Source of the DNA: Chloroflexota bacterium
GTDB lineage: Bacteria > Chloroflexota > Dormibacteria > Dormibacterales > Dormibacteraceae
Assembly (NCBI GenBank): GCA_005880315.1
Contig: VBHB01000078.1
Coordinates: 1 to 64,000, forward strand
Length of the DNA: 64,000 nucleotides
Reading direction: 5' to 3'
Shown: positions 35,500 through 38,644 of the stretch, piece after piece
Layout: each line of letters opens with the position of its first letter
How positions within the stretch are numbered: position 1 is the stretch's first letter
Program-made: the position numbers and the translations under genes
Notes under the pieces: model-generated
The model's database searches: none
What the model was told of the DNA's origin: nothing
What the model saw: only the letters and a program-made list of their open reading frames with translations

Positions 35500-35835
35500 C
35501 CGGGCCAGCTTCTCCCAGTCGGCGCGCACCGGTGCGAAAACGTCGACCGCCGTGGCGCCGTCCGGACCTGCTTCCGCATCGTGCGGCACGTTGCTCGGGA
35601 TGGCGTAGGTGTCGCCTGCGCGGAGCACTCGCTTCTCGGATCCGATTCGCATCGTCAGCGAGCCTGCGATCACGAATCCAAGCTGTTCGTTGTCGTGGTG
35701 GTGCTCGGGCGAGACGGCGCCCGGCTCGAGGTCGATGACCGCCATCGTGATGCGCTCGCCATTGACCGCTCGCGCTGTGATGCCGTCTCGAAGCTGGTAT
35801 GGGCGAAGGCCGCTGACCGGCTCGAACGTCTTCAT
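35470..35835 (-). CDS. Small cupin-domain protein
   Basis: A 121-residue single-domain cupin. The metal-binding motif 1 is PEHHHDNEQLGFVIAG and motif 2 is PSNVPHDAEA, giving three His and one Glu. It starts inside the thiolase stop (ATGA) and is the second gene of that operon. Substrate and function are not known; such proteins may be small oxygenases or binding proteins. Confidence 0.8.
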   Translation of the reverse strand: MKTFEPVSGLRPYQLRDGITARAVNGERITMAVIDLEPGAVSPEHHHDNEQLGFVIAGSLTMRIGSEKRVLRAGDTYAIPSNVPHDAEAGPDGATAVDVFAPVRADWEKLARLDPRPGSWP

Positions 35836-36995
35836 TCGACGACGCGGTCGATGATCGTCGCCGTCCCGAGGCCGCCGCCGCAGCACATGGTCTCGAGCCC
35901 GTACCGGAGGTCGCGGCGCTCGAGCTCGTAGAGGAGGCGGTTCATGAGGATGGCGCCGGATGCCCCGAGCGGATGCCCGACTGCGATCGCCCCGCCGTTG
36001 ACGTTGGTCTTCTCCAGGTCAGCGCCGGTCTCTTTCTGCCACGCGAGCACGACAGAAGCAAACGCTTCGTTGACCTCGAAGAGGTCGATGCTCGTGAGGT
36101 CCAGGCCAGCGCGCCTGAGCACCGCGGCGGTGCCCGGGATGGGTCCCTCGAGCATCAGCACTGGGTCGGTGCCGACCACAGCCTGGGCGCGGATGCGAGC
36201 CCGCGGCCGCAGCCCGAGCTGCTTAGCCTTCTCCAGCGACATCAGCAGGACGGCGGCAGCGCCGTCCGAGATCTGGCTCGAGTTGCCCGCGGTGATGGAG
36301 TGATCCGGGTTGAACGCCGGCTGCAAGGACGCGGTCGCTTCATAGCTGGCGTTGGCGCGAATGCCTTCGTCCTTCGAGAAGAGCTGGGTGTGGCCGTTGC
36401 CCTCGACGGGAACGTCGACCGGCATTATCTGCGACGTGAAGTAACCCTTTTCGGTTGCCTCATGCGCCCGCTTGTGGCTCTCCACGCCGAACTCGTCCAT
36501 CGCGCGGCGCGAGATGCCGTACTTGCGGGCCATCAGCTCAGCCGAGATTCCCTGCGGCACGAGGTCGTGGAGCTCCATCAGCTCTGGCGGGAATGGAGTA
36601 CCTGGCGAAACTGCGCTCGACCCCATCGGCACGCGGCTCATCGATTCGACGCCGCCCGCGATGGTGATGTCGCAGACGCCTGACTGGATGAGGTTGGCGG
36701 CGAAATGAAGCGCCTGCTGGCTCGAGCCACACTGGCGGTCGACGGTGGTGGCGGGGGTGGTGACCGGGAAGCCTGCGGTGAGCCATGCGTTGCGAGCGAC
36801 GTTCAGCGACTGTTCGCCGACCTGACTCACGCAACCGAAGACGACGTCCTCAACCTGGCTTGGATCGATGCCCGCGCGCTCCACGATCTCTTTCAGGACC
36901 AGCGAGCCTAGCACGACTGGATGGATGTCCTTGAGCTTTCCGTTGCGACGTCCAATCGGCGTGCGCACAGCCTCGACGATCACTGCTTCTCGCAT
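35832..36995 (-). CDS. Acetyl-CoA C-acyltransferase (thiolase)
   Basis: A 387-residue thiolase. The nucleophile Cys is in TVDRQCGSSQQAL, with NEAFAS, GHPLGASGA and the second catalytic Cys in ETMCCGGGLG. It either condenses two acetyl-CoA or cleaves 3-ketoacyl-CoA. No other beta-oxidation or polyhydroxybutyrate gene is adjacent, so the direction is not clear. The ATG at 36995 has GGAG 9 nt upstream. A TTGACA box at 37071-37066 on the minus strand, 17 nt from TTAGTG, is a possible promoter. Confidence 0.87.
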   Translation of the reverse strand: MREAVIVEAVRTPIGRRNGKLKDIHPVVLGSLVLKEIVERAGIDPSQVEDVVFGCVSQVGEQSLNVARNAWLTAGFPVTTPATTVDRQCGSSQQALHFAANLIQSGVCDITIAGGVESMSRVPMGSSAVSPGTPFPPELMELHDLVPQGISAELMARKYGISRRAMDEFGVESHKRAHEATEKGYFTSQIMPVDVPVEGNGHTQLFSKDEGIRANASYEATASLQPAFNPDHSITAGNSSQISDGAAAVLLMSLEKAKQLGLRPRARIRAQAVVGTDPVLMLEGPIPGTAAVLRRAGLDLTSIDLFEVNEAFASVVLAWQKETGADLEKTNVNGGAIAVGHPLGASGAILMNRLLYELERRDLRYGLETMCCGGGLGTATIIDRVVE

Positions 36996-37065
36996 GGTCA
37001 ACGTCTCCTTACGGCCTTGGTGTGCCGATTCTACGACCGCCTCACTAACGTCTCGTCGGATGTGG

Positions 37066-37071
37066 TGTCAA
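37066..37071 (-). promoter_or_regulatory. Promoter -35 box of the thiolase operon
   Basis: On the minus strand TTGACA is a perfect sigma-70 -35 box. After a 17-nt spacer comes TTAGTG, a weak -10. The thiolase ATG lies about 40 nt downstream of it, with a normal ribosome binding site. Confidence 0.45.
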
Positions 37072-37139
37072 GCCCCCAAGCGGTTGCCTGGCTGTGAGAT
37101 GTTTTTATTTGTTGACGCGCTCTTAGGCCCCTGTTAACT

Positions 37140-37292
37140 TTCGCGACGCCCCAAGCGGCTGAGTACGGTAAACCTGAGGATACCGAACGTCGAGTAGGTG
37201 AAAGGTGCGGCGCAAGCCGTGGCTGGAAACCGAAAAACGCATAGGGGACTTCAGGGTAAACAGGAAGGTCTCTTGGGGCATCTCTTTTCCCC
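37140..37292 (+). ncRNA. Candidate structured non-coding RNA
   Basis: This stretch of the 318-nt gap between the thiolase start and the next gene has no plausible ORF but folds well. GCCCCAAG (37148-37155) and CTTGGGGC (37272-37279) can close the element with 8 perfect base pairs. Inside are CGGTA/TACCG (37166-37170, 37181-37185), CGGC-GCAA-GCCG with a GNRA-type tetraloop (37208-37219), and GACTTC/GAA-GTC (37247-37252, 37264-37270, one bulge). A-rich unpaired segments (GTGAAAGG, GGAAACCGAAAAACG) favour the plus strand, as does a TTGACG box at 37112. I do not recognise the family. Confidence 0.4.
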
Positions 37293-37313
37293 AGCGCATC
37301 CACAGCCCCTTTC

Positions 37314-37592
37314 TCAATTCGGAAAGCCCATCTTGCGTGCTTCTGCGCAAGCTTTGTCCACAGCCTCGACATCGAATCTTAGACGCGCTCGCATAAGCTC
37401 CTTGACGCCCTCTTTGAGCCGTGTCACGGGCATCGGGTCCTCGTAGTGCAGCCAGTGATAGGCGATGGGCTCCGACCAGGTCTTGCCCGCGGCCGCGTAC
37501 ATGCGCCGGTGGGCGTCGACGACGATCAGCTCGACCCTGCGCAGAAGGCTGGGATCTCCCGAAACGATCGCGGCGAAGTCCTGCAGCGCCAT
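37314..37592 (-). CDS. Small conserved-looking protein downstream of HPRT
   Basis: A 92-residue soluble protein starting at an ATG 5 nt after GGAG, 35 nt downstream of the HPRT stop on the same strand. It is mainly helical, with WSEPIAYHWLHYEDPMP in the middle. Not recognised. Its codon pattern and ribosome site suggest a real gene, probably in the HPRT transcript. Confidence 0.55.
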   Translation of the reverse strand: MALQDFAAIVSGDPSLLRRVELIVVDAHRRMYAAAGKTWSEPIAYHWLHYEDPMPVTRLKEGVKELMRARLRFDVEAVDKACAEARKMGFPN

Positions 37593-37627
37593 CCACTCCA
37601 GGAGGCCCTGAAGCCTGGCTCCCGCTC

Positions 37628-38644
37628 CTACTTGAGGTCCTCCACGACGGTGGGTCCGCCGGCGCCGGCATGCGCCCCGGCGGCGAGCTCGAACACGCTC
37701 GCCTTCAAGGCACATATGAAAGGAAGGTTCCGGTACAGCTCGCGGTAGTCGAGCCCGTAGCCGACCACGTAGTCGTTGGGAATCTGGAAGCCGACATATC
37801 GGACGGGCACCTTGACCAGGCGGCGGCCGGGACGGTCCAGCAGCGTGACCACCTCGATCGATTCCGCGCCGCGCTCACGCAGCTCCGACAGCACGTAGTC
37901 GAGGGTTAGGCCGGTGTTGACGATGTCCTCCACCAGCAAGACGTGCCGGCCCGCGATCGGGTAGTCGATGTCCCGTGCGATGCGGACGCGTTCCCGCGGC
38001 TGGGCGCCGGCGTATCGCCTGAGATCCAGGTAGTCGATGACGAACGGGACCTTGATCTGACGGGCGAGGTCGGCTAGGAAGAAGGTGACGCCCTTGAGGA
38101 CGCCGACCAGGACGATCGACTGCCCCCGGTAGTCGCGGGAGATCTTCCGCGCCAGCGCTCGCACGCGCGTCTCGAGCTCAACCGGAGATATGAGGATCTG
38201 GCCGATGTCCTCCTTGCGCAGGTGCTGGACTTCGAGCGATCCGTAGCCGGCCTTGGCGAGCAGCTGCTGGTAGTCCTTGCGGTACAGGAGCCTGACGTTG
38301 ACGTCGGGATAGATCTCGCGGAGCATCCGTAGCTTGCGGTTCTTGGGCGTCACCAGCGACTGCTTCATCGTGGTCAGCTCGATATACAGGTCGTGCTCGG
38401 GCAGATAGAAGTCGGGCGTGAACATCTCCGACACCTTCGTGCCATCCCAAGCGACGGGGAACGACACCGGCTCGTATACCCACCGAATTCGGTAGTAGTC
38501 GAGAAAGCGAGCGAATTCTTGCTCGGACGGATGAGCGAACTCGATCCTCGAGTGCGCCGGCCCGGATCGCCTGACGAGACGCGATCTTTGGCGGACTGGG
38601 CGGCGCCATTTCTGCGGAACGGAGAGATGGACGGACGACGCCAA
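37628..38644 (-). CDS. hpt: Hypoxanthine phosphoribosyltransferase with N-terminal PD-(D/E)XK-like domain
   Basis: Residues about 160-338 are a standard HPRT for purine salvage: LVGVLKGVTFFLADL, the PRPP loop in LLVEDIVNTGLTLDYVLSEL, and VGYGLDYRELYRNLPFI. Residues about 32-135 are an added domain that resembles a restriction-endonuclease fold (EFARFLDYY, then FTPDFYLPEHDLYIELTTMK, then VRLLYRKDYQQLL). The expected ExK is ELT here, so nuclease activity is doubtful. HPRT alone is normally about 180 residues. The start is a TTG 12 nt after TACAAT (38662-38657, minus strand). Confidence 0.85.
   Translation of the reverse strand: MASSVHLSVPQKWRRPVRQRSRLVRRSGPAHSRIEFAHPSEQEFARFLDYYRIRWVYEPVSFPVAWDGTKVSEMFTPDFYLPEHDLYIELTTMKQSLVTPKNRKLRMLREIYPDVNVRLLYRKDYQQLLAKAGYGSLEVQHLRKEDIGQILISPVELETRVRALARKISRDYRGQSIVLVGVLKGVTFFLADLARQIKVPFVIDYLDLRRYAGAQPRERVRIARDIDYPIAGRHVLLVEDIVNTGLTLDYVLSELRERGAESIEVVTLLDRPGRRLVKVPVRYVGFQIPNDYVVGYGLDYRELYRNLPFICALKASVFELAAGAHAGAGGPTVVEDLK

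Follow-up and report, generated by a model that had tools for sequence, protein, structure and literature searches.

Few structured RNA classes are conserved throughout a phylum, and several of them have proved to be core machines or major regulators. OLE, GOLLD, ROOL and raiA are conserved structured bacterial RNAs whose function was unknown when they were found, some of them with protein partners. OLE RNA forms a ribonucleoprotein (PMC11332333). Chloroflexi-1 RNA (RF01698), likewise a candidate structured RNA from Chloroflexota, is listed only for Chloroflexus aggregans (PMC2864571). The RNA described here is encoded in a 64-kb stretch of Chloroflexota DNA (the window). It is smaller than OLE, GOLLD, ROOL and raiA and so far confined to Chloroflexota, and Chloroflexi-1, although present in Rfam, shows no match to it.

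The locus was compared with all 4227 families of Rfam 15 by a cmscan of the whole window, and no family matched there. Relaxing the threshold to an E value of 5 for the 441-base region returned nothing, and at E values up to 10 the only hit in ten homologous loci was a neighbouring tRNA. Searches of papers, which covered open-access main texts, gave no description of the RNA. It is not in Rfam 15 and was previously uncatalogued. The suggestion of a new small RNA, made in an earlier note on this DNA, is borne out by this lack of an Rfam match together with covariation and conservation across the phylum.

Two known families share features with the element. The closing helix is like that of RNase P RNA (RF00010), and the look-alike strings GGTAAAC and CATAGGG occur in the new RNA, but the conserved core is missing and RF00010 does not match at the locus. 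An RNase P identity was raised because no RNase P RNA was found in the window's own assembly; it was ruled out by the separate RNase P RNA that scores above the cut-off, elsewhere in the genome, in 54 of 61 relatives, so that the earlier note was right to set it aside. The similar size, the paired ends and a sigma70-type promoter of its own recall 6S RNA (RF00013), but the fold is different and the 6S covariance model gives no match at the locus.

Position, transcription signals and distribution of the RNA gene

The RNA gene occupies positions 37148–37290 of the + strand (covariance-model match 37141–37290), its ends being placed from the promoter, the closing helix and a T-run. The RNA would be about 140 nt long, with a predicted start near G37148 and an end within the T-run at 37285–37288, and the whole unit from promoter to end extends from about 37112 to 37290. 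It sits between two genes of the − strand, a thiolase gene (35832–37001), which is divergent from the RNA and its neighbour in family f1 only, and a gene for a T7-endonuclease-I-like domain fused to hypoxanthine phosphoribosyltransferase (HPRT; 37628–38644). In f1, the family of the window, a small unnamed open reading frame without a Pfam match (37314–37715, − strand) separates the RNA from the fusion gene. It is only 45%–66% identical among most f1 members, and the RNA is thus much better conserved than the adjoining coding sequence.

A DNA search located the element in 31 of 61 relatives, all from f1, and in none from the sister families f2–f4. When the f1 homologs were aligned in one orientation, the flanks were variable, the promoter boxes were kept and the RNA part was nearly invariant, with about 100 such positions within the family, conserved unpaired segments included. 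Within the 64-kb window the covariance model gave a single strong match (132.8 bits, E = 5.7e-36); the next best reached 8.8 bits, and noise, gauged on unrelated loci and on the remainder of the window, did not exceed 10.3 bits. The folding energy of the element was no better than that of shuffled sequences (z = −0.01) and is therefore not counted as evidence; support comes from conservation and covariation. Judged on these, it is nearly certain that the locus carries a stand-alone structured non-coding RNA gene.

The TTGACG box that had been reported before the element is present at 37112–37117 (+ strand) as the predicted −35 box, and a −10 box, TTAACT, lies at 37134–37139 (+ strand) and reads ATAACT in several relatives. 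Most homologs have a promoter match here: of 59 homologs, 40 match TTGACA-N16–18-TATAAT at 9 or more of 12 positions immediately ahead of the point where the model begins, compared with 1.2% of control windows, and 27 do so at 10/12, compared with 0.08%. The window's own sigma70-type promoter scores 8/12, under the 9/12 threshold. From these boxes, transcription is predicted to begin with the first base of the closing helix (P1), whose 3′ strand is followed by a terminator-like T-run (37285–37288, + strand) that is longer in many homologs. These signals suggest that the RNA is transcribed as its own unit from the predicted promoter. The sequence TTGCCTGGC (37084–37092), some 20 nt ahead of the −35 box, is kept in nearly all f1 homologs and is possibly a regulator site or an UP-like element. 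The earlier note had also described a repeated GC-rich block; the copy at 37072 is present but not conserved in relatives, and the repeat therefore looks like chance.

Homologs in more distant genomes were sought with a covariance model of family f1 (R1) and with models built from successive finds (R2 and R3). R1 alone recovered diverged homologs in six families besides f1. Of the 400 Chloroflexota genomes sampled, 46 in total carry covariance-model homologs; they represent 19 families and 33 genera, and a single genome may have as many as five copies. When 84,980 species genomes were scanned with a pattern, true homologs appeared only in records of Chloroflexi or Candidatus Dormibacterota metagenome-assembled genomes, one of which has four copies, and the pattern had no match in viruses or plasmids. 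Pattern matches outside Chloroflexota (L098, L105, L111 and L113) were without covariance-model support and were rejected as chance. The RNA gene is ancient in Chloroflexota, and its interior has diverged strongly between families.

Fold and covariation

The 8-bp closing helix claimed for this ORF-free element is confirmed, with GCCCCAAG at 37148–37155 facing CTTGGGGC at 37272–37279, and is extended to 11 pairs in relatives (P1, + strand, 37148–37158 with 37269–37279). Phylum-wide, 9 of these 11 pairs show double-sided changes and 96.8% of cells are paired. Inside P1, helix P3 joins CGTC (37188–37191, + strand) to AACG (37236–37239, + strand); all four pairs are doubly changed across the phylum, the fourth being C·A in the window's own family. 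Between P3 and P3b, the strand AGTA (37193–37196, + strand) and its partner GAA (37232–37234) are conserved and probably form a bulged-G (sarcin-ricin)-like three-dimensional motif, AGUA/GAA in the RNA. P3b (37197–37231, + strand) pairs GGT (37197–37199) with ACC (37229–37231), changes on both sides in 3/3 pairs and encloses P4.

The hairpin P4 (37204–37224, + strand) has the GCAA loop, at 37212–37215, that was noted before, and its stem is compensated in relatives, where CCGGC/GCCGG, CCGGA/TCCGG and CCGGG/CCCGG are found. P4 varies in length and is closed by GNRA or UUCG loops; in L118 it is absent, and a GGAA loop caps P3b. A long-range helix, P5, pairs CCTGA (37173–37177, + strand) with its distant partner TCAGG (37251–37255, + strand), and both sides change in all four modelled pairs. 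The 5′ strand of P5 lies between GGTA (37167–37170, + strand) and TACC (37181–37184, + strand), the nearly invariant strands of a helix P2 that P5 would cross. Because P2 hardly varies, its pairing is putative; if it forms, P2 and P5 make a pseudoknot, for which the covariation comes from one side, P5. The earlier description of three internal hairpins thus gives way to one terminal hairpin arm (P3-P3b-P4) and a P5 that would cross P2.

For the close family, the structure computed by RNAalifold was nearly invariant and hence uninformative; a structure derived by hand took its place and was put to the test on diverged sequences. In a phylum-wide set of 37 sequences, 21 of 25 pairs of the nested part are changed on both sides; there are 152 doubly changed cells, compared with 36.2 ± 7.2 in shuffles, and 93.8% of cells are paired, compared with 30%–49% in slid controls, values that come from an alignment fitted to the covariance model and so favouring the structure. 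A MAFFT alignment of 20 diverged sequences, not fitted in this way, gave 93.4% of cells paired over P1-P2-P3-P3b-P4-P5 (84.0% in shuffles and 30%–46% in slid controls), with changes on both sides in 17 of 33 pairs. Compensatory changes in the homologs exceed the controls, and P1, P3, P3b, P4 and P5 are supported by covariation. The comparison with relatives that the earlier note had proposed thus shows both conservation and covariation of the helices, and its proposed covariance-model comparison with Rfam left the locus without a family.

The linked endonuclease-I-like protein and possible roles of the RNA

The T7 endonuclease I fold binds branched nucleic acids. The domain encoded next to the RNA matches T7 endonuclease I (PDB 3cae, 1m0d and 2pfj) by profile over about 90 residues, with an E value of 4.1e-5 for 3cae_A when the domain profile is run against the PDB, and a Holliday junction resolvase of PHROG with an E value of 1.1e-9; the Pfam model Phage_endo_I stays below its cut-off on this protein. 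The HPRT part is recognised by the Pfam PRTase model (E = 3.6e-25). The active-site Asp and Glu of T7 endonuclease I align in the linked protein, but the catalytic Lys is a Thr (ELTT) in nearly all aligned members of the family. The D/E/K catalytic set is not intact, and binding is therefore likelier than cutting. Unlike T7 endonuclease I, the linked protein is often fused to HPRT and GAF domains, and its gene stands beside an RNA gene. An AlphaFold2 model from close-family sequences had a mean pLDDT of 45, too low to use. The matches found by PADLOC were weak (E values of 0.0016 and higher), and no defence role is claimed. Databases name such fusions only as hypoxanthine phosphoribosyltransferase; on the megaplasmid of Thermomicrobium roseum the fusion gene (L216, NC_011961.1 368419–369420) is annotated only as hpt and overlaps mutM.

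The RNA and the endonuclease-I-like gene are statistically tied. Among the 400 genomes drawn for the RNA survey, 132 have the domain, 44 of the 46 RNA-positive genomes and 88 of the 354 RNA-negative ones (Fisher p about 1e-21, and about 2e-13 outside f1, with phylogeny ignored and the counts inflated by shared ancestry). The domain is present in all 19 RNA-positive families, and the two RNA-positive genomes without it are G352 and G009, the latter 84% complete and with its RNA on a short contig. The 88 genomes with the domain and no detected RNA may in part reflect models that miss diverged copies, as was seen when the regions beside the linked gene were searched with filters off in genomes that the covariance-model survey had missed. 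This search added six families (f11, f27, f40, f54, f58 and f90) and further members of f10, a family in which two genomes each consist of one contig (1,469,720 and 1,362,151 bases). Some of these finds score low (L203 12.5, L187 13.2 and L188 12.1 bits); L187 and L188 are backed by close sequence similarity to the higher-scoring L190.

Adjacency of the RNA and the domain gene is seen in 15 families, where the two may be convergent, divergent or in tandem. In f1, f10, f27, f34, f43, f58, f68, f77, f81, f88 and f89 the RNA lies near the endonuclease-I-like gene; in most of these 11 families the domain is shown fused to HPRT, and the pair is usually convergent. The neighbour in f11, f40 and f54 is an endonuclease-I-like domain without HPRT. 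RNA and domain gene are divergent in f11 and point in the same direction in f90. For about ten families, the RNA lies away from the gene of the protein. Both are missing from the f1 genomes G008, G016 and G020 and from families f2–f4, which have ordinary HPRT only, and in G025 the fusion and thiolase genes lie side by side, the RNA having been lost from the locus. A functional tie, rather than a frozen gene order, is favoured by adjacency in three orientations, by neighbours that have the domain with HPRT as well as without it, and by co-occurrence where the genes are unlinked.

We infer that this orphan structured RNA is most likely the RNA part of a ribonucleoprotein with the endonuclease-I-like protein, a reading to which we assign a probability of roughly 0.55. 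RNA polymerase would start at the first base of P1 and stop at the T-run after its 3′ strand, so that the two ends of the RNA would pair. Inside P1, the arm formed by P3, AGUA/GAA, P3b and P4 would be accompanied by the long-range P5, with its 5′ strand in the P2 loop as a pseudoknot. The small T7-endonuclease-I-like protein would assemble with this RNA, and the protein part would bind branched nucleic acids rather than cut them. Speculatively, the GAF and HPRT domains found in many lineages could give the complex a part in the sensing of purines or nucleotides. The partnership of RNA and protein taken by itself has about an even chance of being real. Rather more tentative is the wider proposal of a new kind of phylum-wide ribonucleoprotein, in which a pseudoknotted RNA would be bound by an endonuclease-I-like protein without its catalytic Lys and, through fusions to GAF and HPRT domains in some lineages, purine nucleotides would control the complex. 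If the partnership is true, it would provide a function for the little-studied endonuclease-I-like/HPRT fusion; the RNA and its linked small protein, related to a phage enzyme of DNA junctions, suggest an undescribed RNA-protein machine.

The RNA might instead be a trans-acting regulator or decoy that binds mRNAs or a regulator and whose place next to the HPRT-type gene is inherited from an ancestral order of genes. This is unlikely, but it would accord with a stand-alone transcription unit with strong predicted promoters, with as many as five copies per genome of variable interior (the several copies of family f43 have diverging, purine-rich interiors) and with an RNA that is not in every case placed beside the protein gene. 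About 100 near-invariant positions in a complex conserved fold would be unusual for a base-pairing sRNA, however, and ancestral order does not readily explain an adjacency kept in three orientations or a co-occurrence that holds with the genes unlinked. Still less probable is a ribozyme or ligand-binding RNA that acts itself, with the protein as an accessory. The pseudoknot, the bulged-G-like module and the conserved unpaired segments do resemble those of RNAs with tertiary structure, but the RNA matches no known ribozyme or riboswitch family, is followed by no consistent gene on the same strand and differs strongly in its interior from one family to another.

That the RNA is a diverged Chloroflexota 6S RNA is very improbable. 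Beyond the likeness in size, ends and promoter, 12 RNA-positive genomes are without a 6S match; the idea is nevertheless largely refuted by a separate 6S-like RNA downstream of aspS (identified by reading the upstream frame) in G009, G011 and G023, all three of which carry the new RNA too, and the long hairpin with a central bubble is missing and variants as short as 61–92 nt exist. The weakest readings can practically be dismissed: a cis-acting leader for the thiolase operon, which the earlier note had suggested and which would accord with the nearby thiolase gene in f1, is contradicted by the predicted transcription of the RNA on the opposite strand, away from that gene, by the thiolase gene's own promoter-like TTGACA-N17-TTAGTG (− strand, 37071 down to 37043) and by homologs in other families that lie beside other genes, the endonuclease-I-like/HPRT neighbour alone recurring, while a chance feature is excluded by the covariation and a coding one is at odds with homolog lengths that differ by non-multiples of three.

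Variant and additional copies

Several genomes carry the RNA in more than one copy or in altered form. In two f10 genomes a tandem pair (L189 and L190), about 300 nt apart, lies beside the fusion gene. Miniature forms of 61 nt, consisting of P1 and GAGUA...GAAAGG, occur in families f41 and f48 (L140, L143, L169 and L170), and no clear TTGACA promoter was found for these. Second, diverged copies are present in three f1 genomes (L148 4001–4141, L074 1501–1645 and L145 4051–4194), none of them preceded by a good sigma70 promoter match. In G009 and G023 a second copy of the RNA's 3′ third lies shortly downstream of an intact copy, the duplicated segments being located at L061 1300–1401 (− strand) and L062 1723–1799 (+ strand).
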